Positions 6,528-42,691 of a stretch of 63,331 bases of DNA are shown in pieces. Under the pieces are notes generated by a model that worked only from the letters and a program-made list of their open reading frames with translations, did no database searches and had not been told where the DNA came from. The stretch's first letter is position 1. Each line of letters begins with the position of its first letter. The stretch is taken from positions 1 through 63,331 of IMG/VR virus record IMGVR_UViG_3300021964_000059; one strand, 5' to 3'. A program made the position numbers and the translations under genes. The DNA is from a virus.

Positions 6528-6881
6528 CTACCTCGTGACAGATGGAGCCACTTGCACTCGGCCCTCTAAAATACGCTCAATGATAGTATTATCGTCACTG
6601 TCTGTATAAGAAATTTCCACGTCGTAAACATATCTTCCTTTGGTTAACGCATCCGTTTGTGTATTTGTTAAAGAAAGTGTGATGACTCCGTTTGTAGGAG
6701 GAGTAGCAACCAAAGTTGAGAAATTAGTTGTGTCGGAGCTATCACTGTTATAATTTTTCTTTAGTTTAGCTGACACGAGATGGTTAGTGAGGTCTTTGAC
6801 AGAGCCATCTACATTTATTAGATGCAATTCGACTGCTAGATCAGCTCCCTGATCTATTGTAAATTCTTCGTAAGCGGCCAT
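6528..6881 (-). CDS. Small beta-sandwich virion protein, 117 aa
   Basis: A 117-aa protein with a predicted Ig-like or BppU-like fold: it opens with FTIDQGADLAVELHLINVDG, followed by alternating strands and a GRYVYDVEISYTDSDD hairpin. Similar small domains occur as baseplate or fibre adaptors in many phages. It is the first gene of the leftmost minus-strand virion operon and follows a late promoter 53 bases upstream. Function as an adaptor is inferred from fold and position. Confidence 0.6.
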   Translation of the reverse strand: MAAYEEFTIDQGADLAVELHLINVDGSVKDLTNHLVSAKLKKNYNSDSSDTTNFSTLVATPPTNGVITLSLTNTQTDALTKGRYVYDVEISYTDSDDNTIIERILEGRVQVAPSVTR

Positions 6882-6914: not shown

Positions 6915-6943
6915 TTGCCCCTGCCTATGGTTTTATTTATAAT
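6915..6943 (+). promoter_or_regulatory. Candidate sigma70-type promoter of the plus-strand cassette
   Basis: TTGCCC (6915-6920), a 17-bp spacer and TATAAT (6938-6943) precede the first cassette gene by 36 bases. The -10 element shares bases with the minus-strand late promoter at 6934-6941, so the two promoters would compete. The -35 matches the consensus at four of six positions. Confidence 0.45.
6934..6941 (-). promoter_or_regulatory. Late promoter TATAAATA (minus strand)
   Basis: Exact match on the minus strand to the T4 late promoter box TATAAATA, 53 bases before the ATG at 6881. It overlaps a sigma70-like -10 element on the opposite strand. Confidence 0.75.
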
Positions 6944-6978: not shown

Positions 6979-7512
6979 ATGTATAAAATAGTACAGTGGC
7001 GCCAAAATTTAAACTTGAGCACGTTTTATGAAAAGGCTTTAGCTAAACAATACATGAACAACATTAACCAAGAAGTGATGGTCAATCAATTGAAGAATGA
7101 AAATGTATGGAAAGGGTTTGTTCTATATCGTGATTTAGATCCAATTGGGTTTACATCTCTTCATAGCATTTTTGATATTGATCCTAAGGGGTACAGAATA
7201 TTGTGTAGAACTGCTTTGATTGAAAGTCCCGAACGAGTAATCAGTAGAGATTCGGTTAGAAAACATAAGCATCTCACATCCAGGTATCTTGCTCCTGCTT
7301 GTCTTAACTCAGTTGAAGGAAATTGTTACATTTCTACTAATAAAAGTAAAGTAGCCAGTCAACGGTTGGTTCATAATATCTTTATGCCTATATGGAAAGA
7401 GATGGGAATAGCAGAAGATGTATTTAAAACAAACTATCGCGGTCATGAACAAACATTTTGGTTGATAAACAAACAGGCGTTCTTAGAGAGTTTAGATGAA
7501 ACCAGTACATGA
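6979..7512 (+). CDS. Unknown protein, first gene of plus-strand cassette, 177 aa
   Basis: Start chosen at ATG 6979 (MYKIVQWR); an in-frame TTG at 6952 would add nine residues. No motif is diagnostic. The centre (GFVLYRDLDPIGFTSLHSI, then YRILCRTALIES) could be an acyltransferase-type (GNAT-like) beta-sheet, but the acetyl-CoA binding loop is not obvious. The end overlaps the next gene by 17 bases, so it belongs to the coupled cassette and probably modifies a sugar or small molecule handled by the other products. Confidence 0.55.
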   Translation: MYKIVQWRQNLNLSTFYEKALAKQYMNNINQEVMVNQLKNENVWKGFVLYRDLDPIGFTSLHSIFDIDPKGYRILCRTALIESPERVISRDSVRKHKHLTSRYLAPACLNSVEGNCYISTNKSKVASQRLVHNIFMPIWKEMGIAEDVFKTNYRGHEQTFWLINKQAFLESLDETST

Positions 7513-7972
7513 GATAAATTACCTGTTCAACAAACACTTGTTACTGACAGAGATAGAACATCTTAAAGGTCATAGTAAGGCCTATACGGACAATAGATAT
7601 TCTGCGGCCGCAGACAACTGGAGAATAATTAAAGAGACTAATCTGAAAGTAGGAGAAAAGGAAACACAGAGGTTCTTAGATTTCTATAACATTAGTAATA
7701 GCGGTTCCTGCAGATACTATATTCTTAAAAAAAATACAAGTTTGCAAATGCATGTGGATAACCATACAACGTGTTCAGTCAATGTAATTCTAAACAACAA
7801 TTGTGCTCCTGTCACAGTTGAGGACGTAGACTATTTTTACTCAACTGCAATTTTGAATACCCAAAAACGACATGGTGTGATCAATTCTGACACAGATAGG
7901 TTGTTATTTAAAATATCGTTCTTTGATTTGCCCTACGAGGAGTTAGTAAAAATTGTCTCTAGTGTACAGTGA
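7496..7972 (+). CDS. Fe(II)/2-oxoglutarate-type oxygenase-like protein, 158 aa
   Basis: Contains an HxD pair (His86, Asp88 in LQMHVDNH), followed by SVNVILN and a later AILNTQKRHGVIN segment (His126) and Arg135 in TDRLLFKISF. This order, HxD ... H ... R on a double-stranded beta-helix, is that of aspartyl/asparaginyl hydroxylase-like 2-oxoglutarate oxygenases. The protein is short, so it is a minimal fold. It lies next to a second oxygenase-like gene and upstream of glycosyltransferases, suggesting hydroxylation of a sugar, lipid or peptide acceptor. Substrate unknown. Confidence 0.55.
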   Translation: MKPVHEINYLFNKHLLLTEIEHLKGHSKAYTDNRYSAAADNWRIIKETNLKVGEKETQRFLDFYNISNSGSCRYYILKKNTSLQMHVDNHTTCSVNVILNNNCAPVTVEDVDYFYSTAILNTQKRHGVINSDTDRLLFKISFFDLPYEELVKIVSSVQ

Positions 7973-8579
7973 TATCACTCAATTTGGTAGAGTAATTCCT
8001 CTCAAGTTAAAGTTAGACCCAGCTAAACTTTTGAACGAAATATCCTCATTCAAGTGGTCAATCTATAATACAACAAAACAAGTACCCATTCCCAGGCTTG
8101 GGTTATCAATAACTCACAATAAAAAATATCCTTCACTTGATTTAGAATCTTTACTAGAATATAATCAAAAAAATAACACAAACCTCAATGATGAGGATTT
8201 CAATCAATTTACTGATGTGTTTTTTAAATCAAAAGAAATCAGAGATATTTCGAAAGAGTTCCATTCCCATCTTGCAAGGTCTCACATTTTAAAAATGCAA
8301 GAAGGGGGGTATTTTCCTCCACATCGGGATCCTGTTTTACCCTCTCACAATCTTAATTGTTTTAGAATACTTGTGCCAATATATGGTTGTAATCCTCCAA
8401 CAACATACTTCTTTATTGACGAAAAACTACAGCACTGGAATCATGGCCAGGCTTATTTCATTGATACAAATATGATGCATCATTTCTTCTCTTATAATGA
8501 GTCAATGATGATAGTATTCAACATTTCTATTAATGACGAGACAGTAAATACATTAATCCATAATATGGAAAAGATATGA
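7953..8579 (+). CDS. Aspartyl/asparaginyl-hydroxylase-like oxygenase, 208 aa
   Basis: TTG start at 7953, nine bases after GAGGAG; a GTG at 7962 is the alternative. The motif GGYFPPHRDP gives metal ligands His124 and Asp126. Downstream FRILVPIYG and GQAYFIDTNMMHHFFSYNES supply the distal His (176/177), as in Fe(II)/2-oxoglutarate-dependent aspartyl/asparaginyl beta-hydroxylase folds. It overlaps both neighbours. Fused or tandem oxygenases of this type are frequent in marine phages. The substrate cannot be read; the surrounding glycan genes suggest a saccharide or lipid-linked target. Confidence 0.65.
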   Translation: MSLVYSDITQFGRVIPLKLKLDPAKLLNEISSFKWSIYNTTKQVPIPRLGLSITHNKKYPSLDLESLLEYNQKNNTNLNDEDFNQFTDVFFKSKEIRDISKEFHSHLARSHILKMQEGGYFPPHRDPVLPSHNLNCFRILVPIYGCNPPTTYFFIDEKLQHWNHGQAYFIDTNMMHHFFSYNESMMIVFNISINDETVNTLIHNMEKI

Positions 8580-9517
8580 ATATACTGTATTCTGTCTACA
8601 AAGACAATAGTCAAATAAAATTTAAAGAACCATTTAATTTAGAAAGTTCTAACGAGATTGTGTATGGTAATGATTTTCATAAGCTTGGTGAATTTATTAT
8701 TAATATTTCAGAGGTTCTTATAAAACTTAAGCTACTCAACTATACCAAAGAATTTAGAATTGGTATTTGTGTTCCTAGAGAAGTTAAAACAAAGTTCAAC
8801 ACTGATGATAAAGAAACGACTTTACAATCAATGATTGCTTTGGTCCATGAGCTTAAGGTATACAATCCTATACATTATGTGTTCTTTGAGTACAATGATT
8901 TCGAAGATAACCTCACAGACTCATTCAAGCCACTGAGAGCACCTATACACATCTGGCAGACGGAAACAAGATGGAGAGGGGATGGAAACTTCATATGTGT
9001 GAAAGAGAGTAGAAATAAAGATTGGATGTTGCCTGCAGACATGAGTCCGATCATCGATCAAGCTTGTGAATTGGGCTTGCAGGTCAAAACGATAAAATAT
9101 GGGATGACAATAGCAGATCAAATCGATCTTCTTTCTCGATGTAAGTGTCTTGTGACGGAAAGGGGTGGTCAAATATTATTGTCTACGTTGATAGGAACAC
9201 CGTTCATACTATGTTCTGCAGAACCGGAAGCTTTGTTTGAGAGAAACGGCGAATTAGGAACAATGATATTTGAGTCTGACACATTAGGAATGAATCCTGA
9301 CACCAAGACACTGGTTAATGATAAAGTTTGTAATAAGAGATTTGATAATTCAATAACTGTAGCTGACTATTGCAATAATGACAACATATTGAAACAATTT
9401 ATACAGTGTAGACATAAACCAGACTTACAGAAGCAATATGTGTTAAATAATTTTGAAATAGTTGATGTCGCCTCTGATTATTATGTTTCTGAGATAAAGA
9501 AGGTGTTAGGTGTATAG
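8576..9517 (+). CDS. Putative GT-B glycosyltransferase, 313 aa
   Basis: Starts with an ATGA overlap. The C-terminal half shows GT-B features: YGMTIADQIDLLSRCKCLVTERGGQ is followed by TLIGTPFILCSAEP, resembling the donor-binding loop of heptosyltransferase-like (GT9-type) or related enzymes, where a conserved E/S-rich GG turn holds the nucleotide. The N-terminal half is divergent. Context (pyruvyl-transferase-like and GT-A neighbours) supports a sugar-transfer role. It could instead be an epimerase-like Rossmann protein; family assignment is tentative. Confidence 0.5.
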   Translation: MNILYSVYKDNSQIKFKEPFNLESSNEIVYGNDFHKLGEFIINISEVLIKLKLLNYTKEFRIGICVPREVKTKFNTDDKETTLQSMIALVHELKVYNPIHYVFFEYNDFEDNLTDSFKPLRAPIHIWQTETRWRGDGNFICVKESRNKDWMLPADMSPIIDQACELGLQVKTIKYGMTIADQIDLLSRCKCLVTERGGQILLSTLIGTPFILCSAEPEALFERNGELGTMIFESDTLGMNPDTKTLVNDKVCNKRFDNSITVADYCNNDNILKQFIQCRHKPDLQKQYVLNNFEIVDVASDYYVSEIKKVLGV

Positions 9518-10112
9518 TTTTCCTTATAAGGGTGATAGTTATTCAATAATTGTATCTGGTGGTGTAGATAGCGCACTAGTATTATATTATTTGTTATTAA
9601 AAAACAAACCAGTTAACGTATACACAACAGCTTCAGAGAAGACATTGTACAAGAACGCGATAACGAGTGTCAATGTAATACAAAAATGTATGGAGCTGAC
9701 AAATAACTATCAAGTTACCCATCAGGTTTTTTATCAACGTTCTGGGGACATAAAAACTATAATGAGGCCACTGATACAAAAATTCAACAGTGGAGAGATG
9801 CGATACTTATATACAGGTGTTACAGCAAATCCGCCGGCAGGTACAATTGATATGATTTCCGGTCAAGAGTCTCAGAGAGACCCGAACGAAACCAGAAATT
9901 TAGAGATACAACCATTCATCATTCAACCATTCACAAATTATGATAAACGTTGGATTGCAACTAAATACAAAGAACTCGGCCTGTTGGATACACTATTTCC
10001 TGTAACAAGGAGTTGTGAACATCAAGCTGAAGATCATGGTGATCCAGGTTATGGCCATTGTGGCTTATGTTGGTGGTGCAAAGAAAGATTGTGGGCTTTT
10101 GATCAATTATGA
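9510..10112 (+). CDS. QueC-like PP-loop ATPase
   Basis: GTG start overlapping the previous gene. SGGVDS at residues 16-21 is the PP-loop pyrophosphatase motif. The C-terminus holds four cysteines (Cys169, Cys184, Cys187, Cys190, in CGLCWWCKER), matching the zinc site of QueC, which makes 7-cyano-7-deazaguanine (preQ0) from 7-carboxy-7-deazaguanine. QueC-like enzymes can feed queuosine or DNA 7-deazaguanine modification, but no QueD, QueE, FolE or DpdA partner is recognisable in this window. Here it sits among glycan genes with a radical SAM protein, so it may adenylate a carboxylate on a sugar instead. Confidence 0.7.
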   Translation: MYSFPYKGDSYSIIVSGGVDSALVLYYLLLKNKPVNVYTTASEKTLYKNAITSVNVIQKCMELTNNYQVTHQVFYQRSGDIKTIMRPLIQKFNSGEMRYLYTGVTANPPAGTIDMISGQESQRDPNETRNLEIQPFIIQPFTNYDKRWIATKYKELGLLDTLFPVTRSCEHQAEDHGDPGYGHCGLCWWCKERLWAFDQL

Positions 10113-10786
10113 GAGTAGATCCAAGGTCGCCCGGTCTTAATCTTGGAGACGATATTAGTGATCCCCATCTATATTTTAACAACCTAGATAAGTTAAACAT
10201 ATTGGGTGGGGGAAGTTATCCTATTCTGGAATCCTATTCTGAAAATACTATATTGTGGTCAGTTGGGTTATCTATTAAAAGTAAAGTCGAATACACAATC
10301 CACAAACTCCCATTCACTGTTGCTGGAATCAGAGATGAGTGTTTTGTTGATAAGTACCTTTTCCTTCCTTGTGTCAGTTGTATGAACAATGATATCACTA
10401 GTGAACCAGTGGGAAACGAGACTCTTTACTATTTAAATGCTTCACACCCAGTAAACCATCCTCATGCCCTATATAACAATTGTTCCCTAAATACCTTTTT
10501 AGATGCATGGAGACAAAGTGAAACTATTGTTACTAATAGTTATCATGGGATCTATTGGGCTCTGTTATCAAAGAGAAGGGTTATTCCGTTTGGATACTCT
10601 ACTAAATTTATCAGTGTGTTAAGAATGTTTGGACTAGAACTACCTACCAGCAACTTTTACGTTAAAGAAAAATCAGCTGATGTTTTGAATAAAATTGACT
10701 ATACAATTTTAGAATCCTCTGTTGATCGATTACAAGAGTTTAGAGATAGAAACAATGAATTTGCTGAGAAAGTTTTAAATGTATAA
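10109..10786 (+). CDS. Polysaccharide pyruvyl transferase-like protein, 225 aa
   Basis: N-terminal GLNLGDDISDPHLY matches the G(N)xGDxxI opening of the polysaccharide pyruvyl transferase family (PF04230). The C-terminal VTNSYHGIYWALLSKRRVIP matches its signature SxYHGxxxALxxxxPVI. These enzymes are GT-B-like and move pyruvate from phosphoenolpyruvate to sugar hydroxyls, forming ketals in surface polysaccharides. The protein is shorter than typical bacterial members (300 aa or more), so it may be a minimal form or another GT-B-like transferase. ATGA overlap with the QueC-like gene and an overlap with the radical SAM gene indicate co-translation. Confidence 0.65.
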   Translation: MRVDPRSPGLNLGDDISDPHLYFNNLDKLNILGGGSYPILESYSENTILWSVGLSIKSKVEYTIHKLPFTVAGIRDECFVDKYLFLPCVSCMNNDITSEPVGNETLYYLNASHPVNHPHALYNNCSLNTFLDAWRQSETIVTNSYHGIYWALLSKRRVIPFGYSTKFISVLRMFGLELPTSNFYVKEKSADVLNKIDYTILESSVDRLQEFRDRNNEFAEKVLNV

Positions 10787-11822
10787 ACTAAACCGTTTGG
10801 ATATGGGATTAACAACTCGATGTAATGCTGCTTGTCCCCAATGCCCAAGAACAAATGCAGAAACTAATAAAGGATGGGATTGGCTTAAGCTTGAAGAACT
10901 GACCTTAGAAGATATTCAAAAGATTGTTCCCCCACAGTTTTTCAAAGACAACTTAATTTTAACAATTTCTATTTGTGGGGGATATGGAGATCCCCTGCTT
11001 GCATCCGAGTTATTTCCAATACTAGAATACTTTTTCCAATATGCTAACAAGGCTGATATCTTTATTGCAACCAACGGAGCTATGAAGAAACCTGTATCAT
11101 GGTGGCATCGTTTAGGAAAACTATTGGCGAAGGCTCCTCGTCGAGTAGAAGTTACATTTGGTTTAGATGGCATCAATCAAGAAATGCACGCTGCTTATAG
11201 AGTTCACACAGACTTTGATGTCGCATTAAGAAATGCTCAAATATTAAGAATGTACAATGTGGAGGTTTGCTGGCAATATATCATGTTTGATCACAATTAC
11301 GAATATGTCGATCAGGCTAGGGAAATGGCAAAAAAGTACCACTTCACAAGATTCAGTCCAATCACCTCAACCCGAACGCCAATTATGGATATAAGTCCAC
11401 CTAATGAGATCAAAGAGTTGTATACAACCAGAGGTGCTAGCTATAACCTGTTTACAAATAATGAAAATTATGATATAATTAAGTGTATCTCGGAGGAAGC
11501 CAGGGAAGTCCATATTCATTGTGATGGATATATTGTTCCCTGTTGTTTTTTGGATGAGAGATATTTTATGATGAAGTATAAGCGTGAACATATGAAAGTT
11601 CATGGGGTTCAGGAAAAGGATCTCATTGAACTCAAAGGGATTCCAGCTGTAGACGATATCTTTGAGTTATATGGGTCTGTGGATATTGAAATATTCAATG
11701 CAAAGGAAAGAGGCCTTCAAGCCGTCGTAGACGATCCTTGGTGGGACACATTCCTTGAAAAAAGAGATCAATTTAAAATTCACAAATGTAATGATATCTG
11801 CGGAAAATGTTCTACTGCTTAA
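10779..11822 (+). CDS. Radical SAM protein with SPASM-like C-terminus, 347 aa
   Basis: The radical SAM [4Fe-4S] motif CxxxCxxC is at Cys15, Cys19 and Cys22 (LTTRCNAACPQCPRTN). It is followed by an ICGGYGDPLL segment, where GGEP-like SAM binding is expected, and VTFGLDG on a core strand. The C-terminal region has further cysteines (CDGYIVPCC and CNDICGKC), the pattern of SPASM/twitch domains that hold auxiliary clusters in peptide- or sugar-modifying enzymes. Length is typical for this class. Possible roles are sugar dehydration, epimerisation or C-methylation, or peptide modification. Neighbours suggest sugar chemistry. Confidence 0.75.
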   Translation: MYKLNRLDMGLTTRCNAACPQCPRTNAETNKGWDWLKLEELTLEDIQKIVPPQFFKDNLILTISICGGYGDPLLASELFPILEYFFQYANKADIFIATNGAMKKPVSWWHRLGKLLAKAPRRVEVTFGLDGINQEMHAAYRVHTDFDVALRNAQILRMYNVEVCWQYIMFDHNYEYVDQAREMAKKYHFTRFSPITSTRTPIMDISPPNEIKELYTTRGASYNLFTNNENYDIIKCISEEAREVHIHCDGYIVPCCFLDERYFMMKYKREHMKVHGVQEKDLIELKGIPAVDDIFELYGSVDIEIFNAKERGLQAVVDDPWWDTFLEKRDQFKIHKCNDICGKCSTA

Positions 11823-12385
11823 AAGTCGGTGATAAGTATACTGCCAATCATGTTAATCGTCTGAGAGATCATATTCCAGGGATCATGTGCTTAACTGATG
11901 ATCCCACTGGACTGAACGGTAATTATATGACTCTTCCTGATCTGCCTTTGCATGGTGTCTGGTGGAAAATGTATTTATTTCACTATAACTTTCCGCAGGG
12001 GACATTTCTTGATTTGGATATTGATATCAGAAAACCAATAGATGGAATTTTTAAACCGAAGAATGGTATGACCTTGCTTCGTACAGATTGGGAAGACTTG
12101 GATCAGTTGAATAAAAATACAATCGGGGACAGATACAAGTACTGTTCAATTAACTCTTCTGTTATGTCGTGGAGTACATGCACTCACCATATATGGAACG
12201 ATTTTATTAATAATTATGAAAAGATAATGAGTCTATTCAATGGAATTGATACGTACTTAGAACACAGACATATCAAAAGTCTATCATTCTTTGATGTTGG
12301 ACTAGTCGCATCGTATCGATGTAACCCAGATGCTGATGTTTATATTATGTCATATGATGGGGAAGGAAAACATGGATTTAACTAA
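11807..12385 (+). CDS. GT-A-type glycosyltransferase-like protein, 192 aa
   Basis: Contains FLDLDIDI, a DxD metal/nucleotide-sugar motif after a hydrophobic strand. It is preceded by WWKMYLFHY and followed by CSINSSVMSWS, the usual 'NSSVM' acceptor-side strand of this phage-type GT-A family. It shares architecture with the two GT-A genes at 12998 and 13735. Short for a GT-A enzyme. Overlaps the radical SAM gene by 16 bases. Donor and acceptor are not predictable. Confidence 0.6.
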   Translation: MFYCLKVGDKYTANHVNRLRDHIPGIMCLTDDPTGLNGNYMTLPDLPLHGVWWKMYLFHYNFPQGTFLDLDIDIRKPIDGIFKPKNGMTLLRTDWEDLDQLNKNTIGDRYKYCSINSSVMSWSTCTHHIWNDFINNYEKIMSLFNGIDTYLEHRHIKSLSFFDVGLVASYRCNPDADVYIMSYDGEGKHGFN

Positions 12386-13001
12386 TACGATGAAAAGGAT
12401 TCCAATCCCTTTTTGGGAATGGACTCGGATCATTCATTTATTATACCACGATTATCCTCACAGAGTCAAGGATTTTTCTCAATCATTTTCAAAAAACCAA
12501 GTGTATGCCAAATCGTGGTTAGTAGAAAGATTAATGATGCACAGCATCTGCAATGTAAAAGATAAAGAAGTGTGGATTCTTGGATCGTGGTATGGTACAA
12601 TTCTTGTATACCTATTATACAATAAAATTCCAAATATTAAAACAATTCATCTGGTGGATTATGATATGGAAGCTCTGAAGATAGCCAATGATCTTTTCAG
12701 AGATTACAATATTAAAACTCACCATTACGATATCAACTTCGATTGGCCAAAGATCAAAGGTGATATAATCATCAACACCTCTTGTGAACACATGTGGCCA
12801 ATGAAAGATTATAATTTTAATGGTCTGTGTGTATTCCAGTCTAATAATTTTAGAGAAGAACCAGCCCATATCAATTGTGTTGACTCCCTGGAAGAATTTG
12901 TTAAACAAACAGGAATAAGTCAAATAGACTATAAAGGTGAGATAGACTTTCATGAGTACGATAATTATCACAAACGATATATGATAATTGGAAGAAAATG
13001 A
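12372..13001 (+). CDS. Class I SAM-dependent methyltransferase-like protein, 209 aa
   Basis: Start placed at ATG 12372 because GGAAGGA lies just upstream; an upstream in-frame ATG at 12330 lies deep inside the previous gene. VWILGSWYGTILVYLL is motif I of a Rossmann methyltransferase (glycine loop), HLVDYDMEALKIAN gives the acidic ribose-binding residue, and GDIIINTSCEHMW is the catalytic-loop region. I associate this compact family with marine T4-like phages. Likely target is a sugar, lipid or small molecule made by the cassette. Confidence 0.65.
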   Translation: MDLTNTMKRIPIPFWEWTRIIHLLYHDYPHRVKDFSQSFSKNQVYAKSWLVERLMMHSICNVKDKEVWILGSWYGTILVYLLYNKIPNIKTIHLVDYDMEALKIANDLFRDYNIKTHHYDINFDWPKIKGDIIINTSCEHMWPMKDYNFNGLCVFQSNNFREEPAHINCVDSLEEFVKQTGISQIDYKGEIDFHEYDNYHKRYMIIGRK

Positions 13002-13753
13002 TTCATGTAGTGTGTAGCAAGTGGGGAGACAAGTATCCAATCGAGTATGTCAACCGGTTGCATGATATGGTCGACAAATATCTTCCAAGTAGGTTTCAGT
13101 TTTATTGTCAAACCGATAATACGGATGGTATGCTCCCGTGGATTGAACACATCCCCTTCTCCAATGATTTACCAGAGAATGAACCGAAGTACACTAGAGA
13201 TACCTTATGGGATAGACCTAAACTAAACTACTTCAACCCTGATTTCCTTAAGAAGAATGATATTAAAATTGCCTTGGACCTGGATCTGATTATTCATAAT
13301 AGTATGAGACCTCTACTAGATTTGTTCAATGATAAACCAATCACTGGAAGATCATGGTGGCATAATATGGATTGGGAAAGAGAGCCTGAATGGAAAAGAA
13401 GATATGGTGCCAGAAATAATGGTGGTTTTTATATGTGGCAAGGTGAACAAACAAAACCGATATGGGACGATCTAGTGGAGAATTGGCAACGAATCTATTT
13501 TTGTTTTCGGGGTGGATCTGACAACTTTATTACAACCCGACATCTTGATTTATTTGATTTTGTTCCTTCATCGATGTATTATTCTTTTAACAGAGGGTGT
13601 CAGTGGCCACATGATATTAGTAAGCATATAGTAAGAGGAGATAAAATAATCTGCCTATTTAATACAGATCCAGGTGACCCAACCAATCTTGACATTCATG
13701 ATGCTATTAAACTTTATCCTCAGGTAGAGAAGTTGTGGAAATTAGAGCAGTAA
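12998..13753 (+). CDS. GT-A-type glycosyltransferase-like protein, 251 aa
   Basis: Begins in an ATGA overlap. KIALDLDLIIHN supplies the DxD motif. Flanking WDRPKLNYF and a later NNGGFYMWQGEQTKPIW strand (NxGxxM-like) fit GT-A folds with a C-terminal aromatic helix. Pairs with the next gene, which has the same layout. It could transfer successive sugars in one oligosaccharide. Donor unknown. Confidence 0.65.
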   Translation: MIHVVCSKWGDKYPIEYVNRLHDMVDKYLPSRFQFYCQTDNTDGMLPWIEHIPFSNDLPENEPKYTRDTLWDRPKLNYFNPDFLKKNDIKIALDLDLIIHNSMRPLLDLFNDKPITGRSWWHNMDWEREPEWKRRYGARNNGGFYMWQGEQTKPIWDDLVENWQRIYFCFRGGSDNFITTRHLDLFDFVPSSMYYSFNRGCQWPHDISKHIVRGDKIICLFNTDPGDPTNLDIHDAIKLYPQVEKLWKLEQ

Positions 13754-14367
13754 GAATTGGAAACAGGTATGGACCTGAATACGAGGATTACCTTAAAAGC
13801 AAATTGCCTGAGATAAAGTTCTTAAACGAACAACAAAATAATCTGTGGTTGCAGTGGAATAAGTTAAACTTTTTTGCACTGGACTATAATGAACCAATAT
13901 GCGTCATTGACATTGATATCCTTTTGATTAATGATTATATAGAGATTTTCAACTATCCAATAGAGCGCGGTGAGTTTTTGACGGTCAAGCAGTGGTGGGA
14001 TCCTGAAGCAGCAACAGAACTCAATGGGGTGTTCTACAAATTTTATCCAAGCGACACAAAATACATCTTTGATAAACTTATCGAGTCACCAAGATATTGG
14101 ATGGAATATTTTATTAAGAATAAAATCAAACCGGGCCCAATTAATGGGGAGGAGAACTTTGTTGAGATGATGGCTAAGAAGAGATTGAAAATCAAGTACT
14201 TACCGGAAACATGGTGTTGCAGAATGAGTAATAATAAAGAGTTCAAAGCCAAGATTAATGCTTTGTCCCCTTTACCATATGTTCACTTAGACAAGTATCA
14301 TCCTGATATAAAATTAGTCCATTTCAGCGACGTTAACAATCATATCGATCACAGCAGCCAACTCTAA
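13735..14367 (+). CDS. GT-A-type glycosyltransferase-like protein, last gene of cassette, 210 aa
   Basis: GTG start at 13735 inside the previous gene. CVIDIDILLINDY gives the DxD region, ELNGVFYKFYPSDTKY matches the acceptor strand, and VHLDKYHPDIKLVHF is the C-terminal 'VHF' strand that closes these enzymes. The 3' end overlaps the convergent virion gene by 54 bases (14314-14367), so there is no room for an intergenic terminator. Confidence 0.6.
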   Translation: MEIRAVRIGNRYGPEYEDYLKSKLPEIKFLNEQQNNLWLQWNKLNFFALDYNEPICVIDIDILLINDYIEIFNYPIERGEFLTVKQWWDPEAATELNGVFYKFYPSDTKYIFDKLIESPRYWMEYFIKNKIKPGPINGEENFVEMMAKKRLKIKYLPETWCCRMSNNKEFKAKINALSPLPYVHLDKYHPDIKLVHFSDVNNHIDHSSQL

Positions 14368-14805
14368 TGGAGTTTCTGCTAGTCTGACTAATTCTTTATT
14401 GTCATCTGAGGCCTCAGAGATTCTTTCATCCTCAAATGCATTAATTTTTAGACCAAATAAAATTTCCGAGTGCTTATCATTATTCGGGTCATAATCCATG
14501 AATAAAGCAGAGATTTTGTCGACAAGGTCGCTGTAGTCATCTTCTTGAGCTTCTGTGTTCTGTCCGTATTTAGTAAACAGCTTCGAAAGAACATCCTCAT
14601 ACCCCCTGACTCTATCAGTTGTTTGGGCTTCAATGTCATCAATTGTTACAATCTCTAACAGTTGTTGAAACTGGACGTCCTCAGGATTGACCTCGATATA
14701 ATATGGTCTATTGACACCATCATCGCCCGTGTATACAACTTCTACTACATTTCTTTCGTTACCGCTGAATGCAGCACTAACAATATTGTCTTTGTTAAAT
14801 TCCAT
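14314..14805 (-). CDS. Virion-operon protein of unknown function, 163 aa
   Basis: Acidic 163-aa protein without recognisable domains (opens MEFNKDNIVSAAFSGNERNV; the rest is mainly helical). It is the last gene of the minus-strand virion operon and overlaps the end of the plus-strand cassette. In T4-like phages such terminal genes are often assembly chaperones or small structural proteins; neither can be shown. Confidence 0.5.
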   Translation of the reverse strand: MEFNKDNIVSAAFSGNERNVVEVVYTGDDGVNRPYYIEVNPEDVQFQQLLEIVTIDDIEAQTTDRVRGYEDVLSKLFTKYGQNTEAQEDDYSDLVDKISALFMDYDPNNDKHSEILFGLKINAFEDERISEASDDNKELVRLAETPLELAAVIDMIVNVAEMD

Positions 14806-14807
14806 AA

Positions 14808-15743
14808 TTACACCTGATTAATCTTTAAGAAATATGTATCTGCCGTTGAAGGCGTACCCGTTACAAATTGTTGTCTTGCATATGAATTTACATTAGCCTT
14901 GTAGTAATATTCTGTAAATGTTACATCGGTAAGAATGGTATTTGCCATCCCTGTTCCTCTATTATTTCCAGATCCATTAATGTTATATGTAATTTGATAA
15001 CCTGTTTCATTTGTTGTCGCATATCTAATAGCATTCTGCAAAACATTATCAAAATTCGTTCCACCAAACCTTTGAATGTTACCGCTTGATAAAGCAAGCA
15101 TCGGTCTTTCTATTGTTGTTTCCACACCATTAATTCTATGCAAATAATAGTTTGTAATCGTTTCTGGTTGATCGGGTGTCTCTGGAATCCCAGTTCTTGT
15201 AAACGCATCCTGATCAATTCTTGTATCCCTGAATACTGGATTAGCATTAACCAATGTGCTTCCATCGACGGATGTGCTTGTTGAGATAAAATATGTTCCG
15301 CCTTGTTGAGCTCCTGTTGAACCAACTGTTAATGTGGAGACGGCGGGAAAGACAAATGTGTCATAGAAATCAGCAATTGTCATCGCACGGAGATCATTAC
15401 TACCATCTTTATATAAAGGTAGAGAAATATTGTCTGTATTTGTAATCTGACTAACACTGGCACTTGATTGATCAATTTTATCCCATGATATTGATGTCGT
15501 CGTTGGATCAGCCGATGAACCAGCCCCTGGATCTGATGTAGCGGATACATTAGCCACACCAGCCTTATATCTCGTATCACTTATTGCATCCAAACTACCA
15601 GTATCGGAAACATAATCTAATGTTACAGACGGATTAAGAGAATACAAGTAACGAGCTCTGGCCTGAACATTCTCAACATCACTAGTGGACATTTCTCTAA
15701 TTTGTCCACCACTTGTAACATAAACTGGATTTCTTACGGCCAT
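14808..15743 (-). CDS. Virion structural protein, 311 aa
   Basis: Opens AVRNPVYVTSGGQIREMSTSDV, a start style I associate with marine T4-like virion proteins, then a Ser/Thr/Asp-rich middle and a C-terminal beta-rich domain (GYQITYNINGSGNNRGTGMA). No catalytic motif or membrane segment. Two bases separate it from the downstream gene; co-transcribed with the DUF4815 protein. Likely peripheral tail or fibre-associated. Confidence 0.6.
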   Translation of the reverse strand: MAVRNPVYVTSGGQIREMSTSDVENVQARARYLYSLNPSVTLDYVSDTGSLDAISDTRYKAGVANVSATSDPGAGSSADPTTTSISWDKIDQSSASVSQITNTDNISLPLYKDGSNDLRAMTIADFYDTFVFPAVSTLTVGSTGAQQGGTYFISTSTSVDGSTLVNANPVFRDTRIDQDAFTRTGIPETPDQPETITNYYLHRINGVETTIERPMLALSSGNIQRFGGTNFDNVLQNAIRYATTNETGYQITYNINGSGNNRGTGMANTILTDVTFTEYYYKANVNSYARQQFVTGTPSTADTYFLKINQV

Positions 15744-16727: not shown

Positions 16728-16941
16728 TGACTAATTGCACCAACAAATCTTTGATTTCCTTTATCTCACTTTTAAGATCCTCGACCTCATCAGCAAGTAC
16801 CAGCTGTTGTTCTTTTTGCTGCCTCATTAACTGTTTTCTCTTTCGGGCAGCTTCAATTTCAGCTTTATTTGTATTGATAACAACATTTGTTTCAACATCT
16901 CTTACATAACCCGAAAGATTTTCCACTTCCTTATACTGCAA
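16708..16941 (-). CDS. Small coiled-coil virion-operon protein, 77 aa
   Basis: Likely TTG start at 16941 (second of two in-frame TTG codons; GAGGG sits about nine bases upstream), inside the end of the 1747-aa gene. It opens with LQYKEVENLSGYVRD, has NTNKAEIEAARKRKQL and then a heptad-rich helix (LADEVEDLKSEIKEIKDLL). I associate this short 'NTNK...coiled coil' protein with virion operons of marine T4-like phages; function unknown, probably an assembly accessory. Confidence 0.6.
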   Translation of the reverse strand: MQYKEVENLSGYVRDVETNVVINTNKAEIEAARKRKQLMRQQKEQQLVLADEVEDLKSEIKEIKDLLVQLVNGNNNS

Positions 16942-19900
16942 GTGCAATGGCCCTCAAGTCCTTCAATACTGGAATGTATGAAGTACTTGTGGATTCCATT
17001 ACAATCTTAATCTGGAATGATGTGAATGCTGGCAATTGACCACCTTCACCACCAATCAAGTACTCATACTCTCTGAACACTAATACCTCATCAGAAGGTA
17101 CAGTAGTTGTAGCGCTAGCGAGCTGCCAACTAGTATCTCTAATTGTTTCAGCATTAGTTGAAGTTCTATAGTATACCTTGAAGTTACCTGCAGATGGTCT
17201 GTATGCTGCAAAGAACAACTTAATACCAACTGCCTCTTCTGCCAACGTTGCAACTGTTGTAATGTGCTTCGAAGCAGATGAACCATTGTATGGATCGGTT
17301 TCATCGACAATTGAAATTGGCACATTGAAACCAGAAGTTGAAGATGAATCTTGCTTATCAATTGAGTTTTCAATAAATGTCATCGAAGCTCTTTGAAGAT
17401 CCAGAATTGGTGATACTTTAGTATCACTTGTCGACAATGTCAACTTAATTGTAGCCGCATCAGCAACTTGGTTCTTTGAGTTGGGGATTAACTTAGGAGC
17501 CTGCGTTCCATTGACCTCATTGATAATAATAGGGGTGAAAGAAGAGGCCACACTATAAGCAGAATTTGTTGCTTCATTACGATCACTGGCCCAAGAAGCC
17601 CCACTGGTCAACTTAATGTTACCAGAGATACCTGTATTGTTAGGTGTCAAGGTTTGTACTGAAGTGAAGAACTCATTAAACATAAATTGCTGAGTAGCCT
17701 TGACGTTTGTTCCACCTGTCCGAATCGATCCAGTAGCTGCTGAATCAGCTGCAAAGGTGTAACCAGTCCAGTCTGTATTAACAACTGTTCTATCACCAAG
17801 TATCGAAGCGCCAGAGATTCCTGCATATGTTGATCCTGAATCTAAGCCATACAAAGCGACTGTATCATTCTTAACAAATCCGTGACCTTCATGGAACACA
17901 CGAATTGTAGTAGAACCCGAATCAGTTAGAATTGGATCACTACCAAGTAAATACAAAGATGGTTGTGCATTGGTTAGGTAAGCATCACCTGAGCTACTAA
18001 ATTCAGCACGATTAATTCTAAACATCAAATCTCTGTTCTGATCTGGTGTCCAAGTAGTACCGTTTTGCGATCTATACAATGAACCAAGAGTTGGTTGCTT
18101 CGATACTCTCGCGTCTGTTGATCCAAGAACAAAATCATATGTCTTGGCAACATAAACTGTATAGTCTGTTGTCTCTGCTGCTACAACAATTGCATACTCT
18201 TGGCCAGGTGCCAGATAAATTGGCTCGTCAAATGTAAATGTTGTTGGAGCTGCCCTTACGCTAGCGATATCTTCTAAATCCCCTGGAATTGATACTTCTG
18301 AAGGGGATAGATACTTAACTGCACCCGGAATTGGATACGCTAAAGGTGTACCATTCTCCACTCCGCGAATTTGAACCTGTACAGGTTGCCCGCCAGTTTG
18401 AGCTTTCGTTCTAAAGAATATGTCGACACTTGTTACAAAGATGCCCGAAGGATTCTCTGTCTGTGATACAAAGAACGATTGAGCAAGCGGGTCCCAGAAA
18501 CAGAACACTGACTTCTTCTTAACAATAACAGTTTGAACATCAATCTCTCGTGTTACTTTAAGTGTTCTTTCTCTTACTTCAAGAACACCTGTTGAGGTAA
18601 AGATATCTTGACATAACGAGGTTGCGTTGTCCTCATTATCAGCCGTAATATCAAGAAGCTTAAGAATCTTTGATCCAGTCCTAAATTTAATTGCATTAGT
18701 AGAAGGAATGAAGAATGATCCCTCAATTCTGCCTTCAGCATCTGAGATTAAAGAACTCTTGCCTTCAGGATGCTCAGTTGCCTTTTGATAAACATTACCA
18801 AAATCTTCAGTAGTAGAACTGTATCTGACAAAGGATTCCTCGCGAACCCAATCAGCAACACTGACACCATTAAAGAAGGCAAAGTGCTCTGTATTCGGTT
18901 TTAACCCTTGAGCCTTGAAGTAAACTTTCTTCGATCTCATGTAAGGAATGAGGAATGTTTCAAGTACTCTGTTACCAACTTGTTCAATGATAACATCATC
19001 TCTAACTACAGCTTCATTTGAGGCAATCGATACACTTGGTTGATCATCAATCAAAGAGTTCACCGCGCCCGCCGTAGCAGCACCTGCAGCTGCAAGACTG
19101 GCTGCAGTGAGATAGTTACCTGCCATTAACTGACCGATTGCAGTCGTCGAAAGTGAGAATCCGGTTGCTGCAGCACCACCGGTTGCAGCTGCTCCGGCAG
19201 TAGTACCAAGTAGACCAAATCCGCCTGTGGCTGCTCCTACAACTAGTGCAGCTGCAATACCGAACCAACCACCAAATGTTCTTTGAGTAACTGTTCGTGT
19301 ACCTACATTTCTCTTCTTAACACCGCCATCAATTAGAACATCTGGTAAAAATGCTTGTTCAATCCAGTCGTCTGAGGCGGGTGAAAGCTGAAGTGTGCCA
19401 GTGTTAATAATAACTTCAAATGGGTTAACATTAAGAGCCTCATTACACAAATTCTGATATGAGAACTGAGTTTCTGTATACGGAAGAGTAACAAGATCCC
19501 CTGTCTTATTAGTTGTTTGACTGACGTCAGCTGAATCGAAGAACAACCGTACATTACCATAGTAAATGGCTGGTGTAATAACTTTAGCAGATGGATCCAA
19601 AGCAGCTCTGTAGCTGACGTTATCCACATCAGAGAAAACAAAGTCCTTGAAGTTGTCCGCAAAGAATCCAGACTTTGTTCTTTGTAATCCGTTTGAATCG
19701 AGTACCGATAGCGTGGATGTATTTAACTCGAGTAGACTCAACGAGGTAACATCCGCTAATTTGTTTATCCTCTTTTCTAAATTACCAATGTCTTGCATTG
19801 TGTATCTTTTGTTAGGAATAAACGAGAGGCCCACATCAGAATCACTTAATGTATAAGCTGGAAGGGTTATATTGTAAAGTGGCATCGCTCCAGATGGTGT

Positions 19901-22174
19901 CTCCGGAAGAGAGGCCTCTGTTGAAGAAATCCCTTGTGTAACTCTAACTTCACCCACACCCTGATTACCTTCGGCATCCAAGGATGATACGATTAGTTGG
20001 TCTCTTCTTGGAAGATAATACTCTGCATCAAGTGTTACAATATCAGTTGATTGAGGAATATTATTAACATTAGCCTCAGGGTAAGCGCCTGAAGAGTTTT
20101 GAATAGATCTAAAGTCTAGTACATCTCTTAAACTTACACCACCAAAACTCGGTATACTCGTATAGCCTACAACGCCGTTGTAAGAGTTGATAGCAAACAG
20201 ATCCCCGGCCCCGTGAGTAAAGTAATCATACTGGACAAGAATATTACCGGTTGGAATAGATGTCCCAGCTTTTTCAACAAGTCTTCCTAGTCCATAGTAA
20301 TTTGCTCTTTGACCATTATCCACGATAAAGTTATTGGATAAATCTGCTCCATTAGAATCTGCTTGTGTGATGCTTGTTACTCTATAGACGTCAGCTACAC
20401 CAAGATCAATATATCTGAGACCACTTCCATCTGAATCAGCTTCTGAAGGCCAAGCCTTTGTTAAACTATTTCCTGTCGATAAAGATTTTGTACGAATAAC
20501 AGGAGTGTCCACTTGGACATAAGCAATCAACTCGTAATCTGTTGCTGATTCTAATCCAGTGATATCTACTTGAGAACCAACAGGAGACCCGGCCAGAGTA
20601 AATGTGGCACTAGTGTCACTTACTGCCCCATCGGTTTTAGCAATAATCCAATCACCAGTATTTGTAAATGTATCTCCACCACCAGCAGAGAGTGTGTACG
20701 AAGTACCTGTAGTAGTAAATGCATACCGCTTTCTTGTTGTCAATACAATGTCAGAAATACCATCGATCACTGGACGAGATCTTGGAAGTGGGAACACCAT
20801 GGTGTTGATTGAGCTCTGCTTGAGATTAGTAATCCCCGCCTCAACTACTGTATTGACATAATCAGTTGTACCGTTACCAAAACTTCTGACATTACGGAAT
20901 GATTGACCCGAATTCATTTGAATATCAAACAGATAGAATCTTAGGTTACCACCGTCCTCATCAATTCCTCTGACTCTAGCAGTACCAATACTGTCACCAG
21001 TCCATTCTTTAGCACTCATCAAGTCAACTTGCTCGAGAGTGTTAATATTTGGTAGTCCTGAACAACTATCTGGATTTCCTAGTACATAATTACCATATTG
21101 AACGACAATTGGTTCGTTATTTACTGTTTCTGTGTCTCTTGCCTTTGGAACAGTAATTTTAGTAGGGGCAATATCCAAACGATAACCATCGACATATGCA
21201 ACACCACTTGAAACATCCAGAGTCAAGTTGGAATCATTGAGATCGTCAAACTTCGCTCTGAACGCCTTAACCACATAGTCGCCCGACTCTTCTTTCGTTC
21301 TCCGAGCAAGCGCTTTATTAATCTGATTATAGTTATCAGCTCCACCAACTTCTTTTGTGATTAATCCATTTGTTACTTTGGCTACTAGTACGAAGTTCTG
21401 GTCAGAATCAACCTCACTGCGCGTAGTGAGAATTAAACGAATACGGTATCTGTCAGCACCCGGAGCAGCAATGTTTGGTGTTGTCCCTTGATTATCATAC
21501 AAACGATTGTCATCATCCACAGTGACAATATCTTCGACAATTCTGAAACCAATATCGTCTGTTGGTGTAGAGCTATATTTGTCTATGAATGTGGATTGGG
21601 GCGTAGCGTAGATAAAATGGCCCTGAGCAAAGAATTCGCCCTCACCCACGGACGCAAGTGTTCCTCGACCTGTGGCGCTGGCATTTGCTGCCTTAAGAGT
21701 CGCCAATCCCGCCGATGTAAAAATAGCACCGTTCTGTACTCTAATTGGATCCGCAGTTGCTGTACCAGCAGTTGTATCAGTATATCTAACATACAGGGTA
21801 GCTGGATCTGTAGCAGTAGCAGCCTCTACACGAATAATCTTAAACTTGATTGCGGCGTTTGGTGCATTTACCGTATACTCTGCCCCAACAAGAGCTGATG
21901 TGTCAGCTGGTAAAGGAAATGTAATCGTATCGAGTTTAATAAATTCAAATCGATTATTGACTGTCACTCCACCAGGTGTGACTGTGGCACCTTCAGTAAA
22001 GATATTTCTACCAAACCGTGCAATTTCTTCTTGAATAATTGTTTGCATCTGAGTAAGCTCTCTTGCCTGAAGAGCTCTACCAGAATTAAACAGAATACGA
22101 TGGAAGTTATCACTATCGCGATAATCATCCTTATATGTTGAAGAAAATGTGGTATCTTTAACCGTTGTTGCCAT
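16931..22174 (-). CDS. Large DUF4815-type baseplate/tail protein, 1747 aa
   Basis: The N-terminus shows the DUF4815 (PF16075) signature NFHRILFNSGRALQARELTQ followed by QTIIQEEIARFGRNIFTEGA. Across residues ~1-600 it is beta-rich. Around residues ~955-1040 there is a strongly hydrophobic Gly/Ala-rich stretch (from FGGWFGIAAALVVGAATGGF), unusual in a virion protein, then a large C-terminal region with SVDIFFRTKAQTGGQPVQVQ (receptor- or fibre-binding-type beta-sandwich). In this operon it occupies the position of T4 gp10-like wedge/fibre-attachment proteins, directly downstream of gp8. It is probably a baseplate periphery protein that carries fibres. Confidence 0.8.
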   Translation of the reverse strand: MATTVKDTTFSSTYKDDYRDSDNFHRILFNSGRALQARELTQMQTIIQEEIARFGRNIFTEGATVTPGGVTVNNRFEFIKLDTITFPLPADTSALVGAEYTVNAPNAAIKFKIIRVEAATATDPATLYVRYTDTTAGTATADPIRVQNGAIFTSAGLATLKAANASATGRGTLASVGEGEFFAQGHFIYATPQSTFIDKYSSTPTDDIGFRIVEDIVTVDDDNRLYDNQGTTPNIAAPGADRYRIRLILTTRSEVDSDQNFVLVAKVTNGLITKEVGGADNYNQINKALARRTKEESGDYVVKAFRAKFDDLNDSNLTLDVSSGVAYVDGYRLDIAPTKITVPKARDTETVNNEPIVVQYGNYVLGNPDSCSGLPNINTLEQVDLMSAKEWTGDSIGTARVRGIDEDGGNLRFYLFDIQMNSGQSFRNVRSFGNGTTDYVNTVVEAGITNLKQSSINTMVFPLPRSRPVIDGISDIVLTTRKRYAFTTTGTSYTLSAGGGDTFTNTGDWIIAKTDGAVSDTSATFTLAGSPVGSQVDITGLESATDYELIAYVQVDTPVIRTKSLSTGNSLTKAWPSEADSDGSGLRYIDLGVADVYRVTSITQADSNGADLSNNFIVDNGQRANYYGLGRLVEKAGTSIPTGNILVQYDYFTHGAGDLFAINSYNGVVGYTSIPSFGGVSLRDVLDFRSIQNSSGAYPEANVNNIPQSTDIVTLDAEYYLPRRDQLIVSSLDAEGNQGVGEVRVTQGISSTEASLPETPSGAMPLYNITLPAYTLSDSDVGLSFIPNKRYTMQDIGNLEKRINKLADVTSLSLLELNTSTLSVLDSNGLQRTKSGFFADNFKDFVFSDVDNVSYRAALDPSAKVITPAIYYGNVRLFFDSADVSQTTNKTGDLVTLPYTETQFSYQNLCNEALNVNPFEVIINTGTLQLSPASDDWIEQAFLPDVLIDGGVKKRNVGTRTVTQRTFGGWFGIAAALVVGAATGGFGLLGTTAGAAATGGAAATGFSLSTTAIGQLMAGNYLTAASLAAAGAATAGAVNSLIDDQPSVSIASNEAVVRDDVIIEQVGNRVLETFLIPYMRSKKVYFKAQGLKPNTEHFAFFNGVSVADWVREESFVRYSSTTEDFGNVYQKATEHPEGKSSLISDAEGRIEGSFFIPSTNAIKFRTGSKILKLLDITADNEDNATSLCQDIFTSTGVLEVRERTLKVTREIDVQTVIVKKKSVFCFWDPLAQSFFVSQTENPSGIFVTSVDIFFRTKAQTGGQPVQVQIRGVENGTPLAYPIPGAVKYLSPSEVSIPGDLEDIASVRAAPTTFTFDEPIYLAPGQEYAIVVAAETTDYTVYVAKTYDFVLGSTDARVSKQPTLGSLYRSQNGTTWTPDQNRDLMFRINRAEFSSSGDAYLTNAQPSLYLLGSDPILTDSGSTTIRVFHEGHGFVKNDTVALYGLDSGSTYAGISGASILGDRTVVNTDWTGYTFAADSAATGSIRTGGTNVKATQQFMFNEFFTSVQTLTPNNTGISGNIKLTSGASWASDRNEATNSAYSVASSFTPIIINEVNGTQAPKLIPNSKNQVADAATIKLTLSTSDTKVSPILDLQRASMTFIENSIDKQDSSSTSGFNVPISIVDETDPYNGSSASKHITTVATLAEEAVGIKLFFAAYRPSAGNFKVYYRTSTNAETIRDTSWQLASATTTVPSDEVLVFREYEYLIGGEGGQLPAFTSFQIKIVMESTSTSYIPVLKDLRAIALAV

Positions 22175-24393: not shown

Positions 24394-24401
24394 TATTTAT
24401 A
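24394..24401 (-). promoter_or_regulatory. Late promoter TATAAATA (minus strand)
   Basis: Exact TATAAATA on the minus strand, 28 bases before the ATG at 24366, overlapping the 3' end of the upstream gene. It would allow the fibre/gp8/DUF4815 genes to be expressed separately from gp25-gp6. Confidence 0.75.
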
Positions 24402-27646: not shown

Positions 27647-27654
27647 TATTTATA
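27647..27654 (-). promoter_or_regulatory. Late promoter TATAAATA (minus strand)
   Basis: Exact TATAAATA on the minus strand, 20 bases upstream of the gp25 ATG at 27627, in the short gap after the FG-GAP protein's stop codon. It is consistent with separate late expression of the gp25-gp6 unit. Confidence 0.75.
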
Positions 27655-34796: not shown

Positions 34797-34804
34797 TATT
34801 TATA
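34797..34804 (-). promoter_or_regulatory. Late promoter TATAAATA (minus strand)
   Basis: Exact TATAAATA on the minus strand, 34 bases upstream of the gp48 ATG at 34763. It lies only eight bases before the divergent gp4 start. Confidence 0.75.
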
Positions 34805-35316: not shown

Positions 35317-35324
35317 TATAAATA
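35317..35324 (+). promoter_or_regulatory. Late promoter TATAAATA placed for a leaderless mRNA (plus strand)
   Basis: Exact TATAAATA only five bases before the ATG at 35330. If the box spans -13 to -6 as in T4 late promoters, transcription would begin at the A of that ATG, giving a leaderless message. It may also serve the downstream tail genes. Confidence 0.6.
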
Positions 35325-37251: not shown

Positions 37252-37433
37252 TAAGTCTCTCTCATGAATCGCTGGAAAACTATTTTAAAACAAACTTCCA
37301 GCTGTTGCAGAATTTTCATTATTCTCTACATGAGATCGAAGATATGATCCCTTGGGAGAGAGAAATTTACTTAACAATGTTAATTACAGACATTCAAGAA
37401 AAGAACGAAAGAGCACAACAAGGAATGCAATAA
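37248..37433 (+). CDS. 51: gp51, baseplate hub assembly catalyst, read by -1 frameshift
   Basis: 61 codons in the -1 frame relative to gp26: FKTNFQLLQNFHYSLHEIED, then MIPWEREIYLTMLITDIQEK and ERAQQGMQ. The 'FxNFHYSxxEIxxMIPWEREIY' block is the conserved heart of gp51, which T4 needs for hub assembly (T4 gp51 is 249 aa). No start codon with a Shine-Dalgarno site exists in this frame, so a -1 shift on the preceding T8 run would make a gp26-gp51 fusion, as the lambda G-GT tail chaperone does. It ends TAATG, overlapping the tape measure start. Confidence 0.75.
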   Translation, partial: LISLSHESLENYFKTNFQLLQNFHYSLHEIEDMIPWEREIYLTMLITDIQEKNERAQQGMQ

Positions 37434-42033: not shown

Positions 42034-42107
42034 TGGCCCCGGTGGAGGGAATCGAACCCCCATTAAGGGTTTTGGAGACCCCTGTGTTGCCATTACACCA
42101 CACCGGA
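42034..42107 (-). tRNA. tRNA-Trp (CCA)
   Basis: Minus strand. Acceptor TCCGGTG pairs with CACCGGG, discriminator G, and the CCA end is encoded. Anticodon loop CTCCAAA between GGGGT and ACCCT gives anticodon CCA (Trp). The T-loop region reads GGGTTCGATTCCC. Confidence 0.9.
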
Positions 42108-42329
42108 AATGGGACTGTCTTTATGGCGCAGTCATTCCAAAAATAAAAGCGGAACGGGTGGATTAGGGTAACCACCAAGGGGGTACGATCAGATGTACCT
42201 TTCTACATAGACCCCCAACAACTCGCAACCCCGCTAAGGGTGTGGACGCTATCCCTTTGAGTCTACCTTACCCGCCATCTGCGACAGGCATTCGGTCACG
42301 TTCCTATCGGTGTTGCAATCACCGAACTC
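42108..42329 (-). ncRNA. Putative structured RNA A between tRNA-Pro and tRNA-Trp (222 nt)
   Basis: No start-to-stop reading frame of note covers this spacer, yet it contains strong complementary segments on the minus strand: CGGTG-ATTGCAA-CACCG, GGTGG-TTACCCTAAT-CCACC, a GGGGGT ... ACCCCC stem with inner TGTA-GAAAGG-TACA, AAGGG ... CCCTT, and GACTG-CGCCATAAAGA-CAGTC near the 3' end. T4 has stable RNAs of unknown role (RNA C and RNA D) inside its tRNA cluster, a precedent. Function is unknown; folding was judged by eye. Confidence 0.5.
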
Positions 42330-42406
42330 TGGTCGGAGTAGATGGATTCGAACCACCGACATCTGCCTCCCAAAGGCAGCGGTCTACCAGACTGACCTAT
42401 ACTCCG
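42330..42406 (-). tRNA. tRNA-Pro (UGG)
   Basis: Minus strand. Acceptor CGGAGTA pairs with TACTCCG; discriminator A and CCA are encoded. Anticodon loop TTTGGGA in stem CTGCC/GGCAG gives TGG (UGG, Pro). T-arm GGTTCGAATCC is intact. Confidence 0.9.
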
Positions 42407-42606
42407 TAAAAAGTGAACAGTTTGTATGCACATGTTCAGGTGCAGCCTGTTGTCAGGTCTTCAAGCCTGATGCCTAAGCAGCGCAGGAACATAGAATTAG
42501 TGAAGGTTCCGATATCACCCATCGTCACCTACAACCGTTGAGAGAGGTACGAGGTCCCACCTTACGATCGGTGGGTTCGTGGTCCAAAGACCTCTCTGAT
42601 TTGCTC
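42407..42606 (-). ncRNA. Putative structured RNA B between tRNA-Cys and tRNA-Pro (200 nt)
   Basis: Non-coding spacer with dense pairing potential on the minus strand: AGAGAGGT ... ACCTCTCT closing CCCACC-GATCGTAA-GGTGGG, a GGAAC ... GTTCC stem, TCAGG-CTTGAAGA-CCTGA, and a final TGAACA ... TGTTCA stem followed by CTTTTTA, which resembles a terminator. It is flanked immediately by tRNA-Cys and tRNA-Pro and would be released by tRNA processing. No homologous named RNA is recognised. Confidence 0.5.
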
Positions 42607-42681
42607 TGGAGTGGACGACAGGAATCGAACCTGCCTAAAACTGATTTGCAGTCAGTCGCCTAACCTATCAGCCACGTCCAC
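42607..42681 (-). tRNA. tRNA-Cys (GCA)
   Basis: Minus strand. Acceptor GTGGACG pairs with CGTCCAC; discriminator T and CCA are encoded. Anticodon loop CTGCAAA in stem ACTGA/TCAGT gives GCA (Cys). T-arm GGTTCGATTCC. Confidence 0.9.
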
Positions 42682-42691
42682 GAAAATGTTT

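Follow-up and report, generated by a model that had tools for sequence, protein, structure and literature searches.

The IMG/VR virus record IMGVR_UViG_3300021964_000059 (63,331 bases, analysed at full length and called the window below) is a fragment of a T4-like phage in which a cassette of eleven plus-strand open reading frames (ORFs), at 6979-14367, lies inside a minus-strand block of baseplate and fibre genes (Table 1). The flanking tail-fibre, fibre-assembly and baseplate genes all run on the minus strand, and fibre genes stand on both sides of the cassette, which the original prediction, made from the letters alone, had placed beside tail-fibre genes. It had also described the eleven genes as overlapping or touching and as interrupting the virion block, and this is borne out: ten of ten junctions overlap, by 4-56 bases each, and an operon-like module arranged as a single transcription unit is supported. 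The first ORF can begin at a TTG (6952) or an ATG (6979), the latter being the better start because the starts of homologues align there. The phage is placed near the Kyanoviridae because baseplate, tail-tube-cap, gp32-like, ribonucleotide reductase and VrlC-like genes are present, and the nearest named record is Phage C48C1, with a baseplate wedge protein identity of 46.7%. The cassette is likely to be a swappable glycan allele in the host recognition cluster (HRC) of a pelagimyophage-like member of this family.

Table 1. Genes of the cassette, its borders and the neighbouring landmark (2OG, 2-oxoglutarate; Mosig, Pelagibacter phage Mosig EXVC030M).
Feature	Position	Strand	Basis or remark
L-shaped-fibre assembly-like gene, other border	6528..6881	-	phrog_3304, E 2e-17
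GNAT-fold acyltransferase-like	6979..7512	+	AlphaFold2 model and PDB fold matches
2OG/Fe(II) oxygenase-like	7496..7972	+	HxD...H...R motif (HVD86...H...R)
Aspartyl/asparaginyl-hydroxylase-like 2OG oxygenase	7953..8579	+	PF05118
313-aa protein, no function label	8576..9517	+	
QueC-like PP-loop ATPase with Cys4 zinc module	9510..10112	+	PF06508, E 1.9e-6
Polysaccharide-pyruvyltransferase-like	10109..10786	+	PF04230
Radical SAM/SPASM enzyme	10779..11822	+	PF04055, E 2.8e-10; PF13186, E 2.8e-4
Glycosyltransferase 1 (DxD)	11807..12385	+	phrog_1962, E 8.7e-6; Mosig_00094 family profile, 4e-10
Methyltransferase-like	12330..13001	+	PF05175, E 0.0072
Glycosyltransferase 2 (DxD)	12998..13753	+	phrog_1962, E 0.005 (weak); Mosig_00092 family profile, 2e-12
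Glycosyltransferase 3 (DxD), border-proximal	13735..14367	+	Mosig_00092 family profile, E 1.7e-33
Border gene b163	14314..14805	-	Convergent with cassette, 54-base overlap
Conserved border gene	14808..15743	-	46% identical to Mosig homologue at same site
VrlC-like gene	16931-22174		

Most of the enzyme families named in the original prediction are recovered, with unequal strength. By sequence criteria the QueC-like and radical SAM/SPASM assignments are solid, the latter protein carrying CxxxCxxC at residues 15-22 plus a C-terminal Cys cluster. The three glycosyltransferases are related to one another (identity to the 11807 product is 26.5-29% for 12998 and 20% for 13735), and the profiles that they match are families found at the glycosyltransferase positions of sister cassettes; the 13735 product has no match in the profile libraries. 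For the 6979 product, Pfam and PHROG gave no match, and the PDB matches listed for its AlphaFold2 model (7 homologues, pLDDT 82.6) are GNAT/N-acyltransferases (best E 4.9e-6). This GNAT-like gene is accompanied by an Asp/Arg-hydroxylase-like gene in 5/5 non-redundant loci (p 2.7e-5). The cassette may hold two 2OG-type oxygenases. The 7496 product has no meaningful Pfam match of its own, and its homologue in the relative L048 matches PF05118 weakly (E 0.007). The 7953 product matches PF05118 (Asp_Arg_Hydrox) under the cut-off (E 0.0016), which its homologue in L039 exceeds, and is 46% identical to Mosig_00081, annotated as an Asp/Arg hydroxylase; it has HRD at residue 124, and no 2OG-binding Arg was found on inspection of its motif. 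Similarly, the 12330 product may be a methyltransferase, being 34% identical to Mosig_00090, which is so annotated. The pyruvyltransferase label is weaker when the 10109 product is taken by itself (PF04230, PS_pyruv_trans, E 0.015, 15.7 bits, below the cut-off of 25.3); this product is 25% identical (E 5e-14) to an ORF of the relative L109 that passes that cut-off. The 8576 product gave no usable match in Pfam, PHROGs, NCBIfam, the PDB or the phage records, apart from a single local match (E 0.007) in a phage that carries a QueC-like gene; as a guess, it could be a GT-B-type transferase. Among the matches listed in the PDB fold tables there is no family that would change this picture, which does not thereby exclude families outside those lists. 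A cluster for ribosomally synthesized and post-translationally modified peptides was considered as well and set aside, as the overlapping ORFs leave no room for a precursor gene.

The site of the cassette is the published pelagimyophage HRC, which holds glycosyltransferases and radical SAM cassettes and is highly variable (PMC7029224). The cassette shares all of these traits, forming a variable island after the VrlC-like gene and within the fibre region. The window terminates amid fibre genes, so the far end of the HRC, the neck gene gp14 (PMC7029224), lies outside the fragment. That work reports the variability; the present comparison resolves which borders are fixed, that the glycosyltransferases come first and which enzyme blocks alternate, and it contributes an allele with QueC-like, pyruvyltransferase-like and GNAT genes. 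The clearest comparison is with Pelagibacter phage Mosig EXVC030M, whose genes 81-95 occupy the orthologous site between the same border genes. The two cassettes share the 2OG (46%), radical SAM (28%) and methyltransferase (34%) genes and two glycosyltransferase families, the Mosig 2OG gene lying on the other strand. In place of the QueC-like, pyruvyltransferase-like and 8576 genes, Mosig carries a DegT aminotransferase (E 1e-74), a carbamoyltransferase (E 5e-66) and a GT8 protein (E 3.5e-5), together with nitroreductase-annotated proteins and extra radical SAMs; an NAD epimerase lies at the border. Between the VrlC-like and fibre genes of C48C1, HTVC008M and Melnitz no comparable cassette was found; homologues of the fibre-assembly-like border gene are present in these three phages and in Mosig. 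Further along its own variable region, HTVC008M (L016, 19403-22682) has an antisense island of four 2OG oxygenases and a ferrochelatase.

The same architecture, with alternative cassettes in many contigs, emerges from a scan of IMG/VR with the conserved border protein (14808..15743), itself probably a virion or fibre protein to judge from its position. The scan matched 94 relatives, and the best 80 of these 94 yielded 33 non-redundant loci in which 3 kb or more of sequence follows the border gene. The b163 gene is present in 24/33 loci, and cassette glycosyltransferases in 23/24 of those, while 8/9 of the loci lacking b163 are without them, a linkage confounded by lineage in that most b163-less loci come from another group of phages, whose border gene has different neighbours. 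In 36/36 antisense cassettes a homologue of the glycosyltransferases adjoins b163, a count of sequences that includes near-identical contigs rather than one of independent events. By mean rank from the border, these cassettes begin with glycosyltransferases, followed by the methyltransferase and then by the exchanged or variable enzymes. In some loci (L128, L132, L186 and L177) the cassette is oriented like the fibre genes. The site is thus fixed, and the cassette that occupies it is an exchanged allele, constant at its glycosyltransferase end, and not a simple insertion; the insertion originally proposed is right insofar as the cassette is absent from C48C1, the closest named relative, and otherwise gives way to a conserved site at which a variable cassette takes alternative forms. 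The compositional check suggested along with it gave a divided answer. The GC content is lower in the cassette (35.4%) than in the other genes (mean 39.2%, sd 2.7; Mann-Whitney p 4e-5), and GC at third codon positions does not differ between the two. A foreign origin argued from composition was given little weight, since GC has shifted and third-position GC has not.

That the cassette is a sugar or glycan module is well supported, and here the earlier view of a single module with sugar logic stands. It is accepted mainly because the glycosyltransferase end stays constant while alleles are exchanged, and sister versions, with their DegT aminotransferase, carbamoyltransferase and epimerase, follow the same logic; a glycan product and the part played by each enzyme are proposed in what follows. 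The cassette is arranged as a single transcription unit that opposes the fibre genes. The three DxD glycosyltransferases, soluble proteins encoded towards the border, would assemble a short glycan, and an unusual sugar in it would be made or decorated by the GNAT, the oxygenases, the QueC-like ATPase, the pyruvyltransferase-like protein, the radical SAM/SPASM enzyme and the methyltransferase. In relatives the enzyme block is exchanged (for a carbamoyltransferase, a DegT aminotransferase or nitroreductase-like proteins) and the glycosyltransferase end retained. As acceptor, a virion protein in the cytosol, for instance a fibre protein or a border protein, is somewhat likelier than a host O-chain.

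A self-contained O-antigen pathway needs multi-pass membrane proteins. A Kyte-Doolittle scan found no membrane segment in the eleven cassette proteins and at most one per product for the 326 antisense cassette genes of related loci. For this reason a soluble acceptor, perhaps of the virion, is slightly favoured. The alternative that survives best is that the cassette remodels the host surface (lipopolysaccharide core or O-chain) during infection and blocks superinfection or re-adsorption instead of decorating the virion, which is how the glycosyltransferases of this cluster have been interpreted in print (PMC7029224). This has a real but minority chance of being right. It agrees with the orientation of the cassette, opposite to the late genes, and with a sigma70-like site (TTGCCC-17-TATAAT at 6915) that precedes the cassette where no late-promoter octamer does; such sites are frequent in the region (69 found vs 48 expected). 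It is weakened by the lack of any flippase, polymerase, lipid-carrier transferase or other multi-pass protein in the cassette or among the 326 related genes, so that host export machinery would be needed.

Several of these observations weigh against a virion-directed glycan cassette. The orientation disfavours late expression directed at the virion, and no plus-strand copy of the T4 late-promoter-like octamer TATAAATA lies upstream of the cassette. The labels of the pyruvyltransferase, the 7496 product and the methyltransferase depend on weak or transitive homology, 8576-9517 carries no label, and no nucleotide-sugar synthase was identified within the cassette. QueC-like genes also stand beside the terminase in other phages and so are not bound to glycan cassettes. 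Moreover, enzyme activities, product and acceptor are all predicted. The octamer itself occurs at 6934-6941 on the minus strand, upstream of the divergent fibre-assembly gene, and its total of 7 against 5.1 expected is not above chance, which makes it weak evidence overall. Other exact copies lie just 5' of gene starts at 24394-24401, 27647-27654 and 34797-34804 (minus) and at 35317-35324 (plus).

The QueC-like protein belongs to a family of its own. A family alignment scan found at least 465 viral relatives and three cellular matches among 84,980 cellular species genomes; all three (L098, L099, L100) come from metagenome-assembled genomes, have radical SAM genes nearby and may be mis-binned phage contigs. 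Among named phages the protein had no match at 1e-5. Motifs were counted over 69 distinct members by a method independent of any QueC guide sequence. The ATP-binding loop SGGxDS is exact in 66/69 and present as S[GC]GxDS in 69/69, and the C-terminal Cys4 zinc motif is found in 68/69. In these features and in fold (compared for QueC, Cap9 and QatC) the family resembles the PF06508 superfamily, which also includes WbpG. Unlike QueC, it is almost exclusively viral and lacks the substrate motifs YPDC (0 members), YxQxHxxE (0) and VPxRN (1), within which lie residues essential in E. coli QueC (PMC13329287). The SCE zinc motif of Cap9 occurs in 66/69 members and the deazaguanine-binding YxDC of Cap9 in 0/69, and the family has a signature of its own (GxTxNP, TRSCE and CGxCWWCxERxWAFG). 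The predicted model (pLDDT 94.7) is nearest to the solved fold of Cap9 (Z 14.4, root-mean-square deviation 2.7, 157 aligned), ahead of QueC (Z 12.9) and QatC (Z 11.6). The ATPase expected from the original prediction is confirmed by its PF06508 match, ATP loop and Cys4 module, and by its catalytic residues it is not QueC; judging from these motifs, it is probably not a preQ0 synthase. Since Cap9 modifies a protein N-terminus (PMC13279940) and WbpG acts in O-antigen sugar synthesis (PMC13329287), protein and sugar are both possible substrates.

A radical SAM gene lies within 6 kb of the QueC-like gene in 32/58 non-redundant loci and immediately beside it in 25/58; such genes occur in 26/29 searched IMG/VR records, at up to 20 per record, and number 0-2 in four named relatives. 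In one T4-like contig group (L051, L054, L059, L064, L066, L073, L075, L076, L082 and L088) a terminase-large-subunit-like gene follows close behind the QueC-like gene, and radical SAM genes are mostly missing from the vicinity. Another PP-loop variant, marked by a motif of the CxxCWPCREKYWAYG type, is found mid-cassette in L131, L143, L144, L146, L150, L158 and L159, at a rank similar to that of the carbamoyltransferase in other alleles. It is possible, if on balance doubtful, that the QueC-like genes form a large and previously unseparated viral family, misread as queC in viral metagenomes, in which the QueC/Cap9 fold serves a novel ATP-dependent ligation. The bond formed, on a virion protein or a sugar, would be an amide or something like it, and radical SAM enzymes would often be partners.

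The likeness to Cap9 leads to a further alternative, in which a virion protein is modified, at its N-terminus or on its side chains, by the radical SAM/SPASM enzyme, the Asp/Arg-hydroxylase-like protein and the QueC-like protein, with sugars in a secondary role. Peptides are frequent substrates of SPASM enzymes, and the nearest solved fold is a protein-modifying ligase whose SCE motif the family largely keeps. This alternative is nevertheless unlikely, as nothing in the cassette is more constant than its glycosyltransferases, the overlapping genes leave no space for a small precursor-peptide gene, and only one listed ORF of the window (37352-39169) starts with Met-Gly, leaving no obvious N-terminal glycine substrate of the Cap9/QatB kind nearby. 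It is very improbable that the cassette serves to modify DNA or tRNA through a 7-deazaguanine (preQ0) pathway, in which its QueC-like and radical SAM proteins would act as QueC and QueE: PF06508 and radical SAM homology and a weak QueE-like PHROG match (E 0.0099) are outweighed by the missing essential QueC residues, by a SPASM-type radical SAM enzyme, and by QueD, which Pfam did not find in the cassette and which occurs in just 6/31 IMG/VR records with a QueC-like gene, at least 13 kb away.

The kind of locus described here is already known, and what is new is the resolved architecture of allele exchange and the non-QueC family. Glycosyltransferases had been seen, unexplained, in the fibre region of SAR11-type phages. 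With its fixed borders, constant glycosyltransferase end and exchanged enzyme blocks, the glycan cassette resembles a phage counterpart of bacterial O-antigen loci, in which sugar-enzyme blocks are likewise swapped at a fixed site and glycosyltransferases are kept together; unlike those loci, it sits in the phage adhesion region and lacks a flippase, a polymerase and an initiating transferase. This likeness is testable in the cultured phage Mosig. Virome surveys count queC as one of the most frequent auxiliary metabolic genes of viruses (PMC9301287), and some of the surveyed viral 'queC' may belong to the QueC-like family and be possibly unrelated to 7-deazaguanine.

A nucleotide search of named phages with the window, and protein searches of the phage records with the 8576, 12998 and 6979 products, gave no match. 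The same cassette is carried by an IMG/VR contig of 46 kb with 100% identical proteins, and a second contig of the same virus was the sole return of IMG/VR scans with the radical SAM, 8576 and 10109 products. Far from the cassette, the window holds a minus-strand gene (49495-50640) matching the nucleotide-sugar-epimerase family phrog_540 (E 4e-37), whose predicted product could supply a sugar precursor, and a cluster of four tRNA genes (42037-42767, minus).

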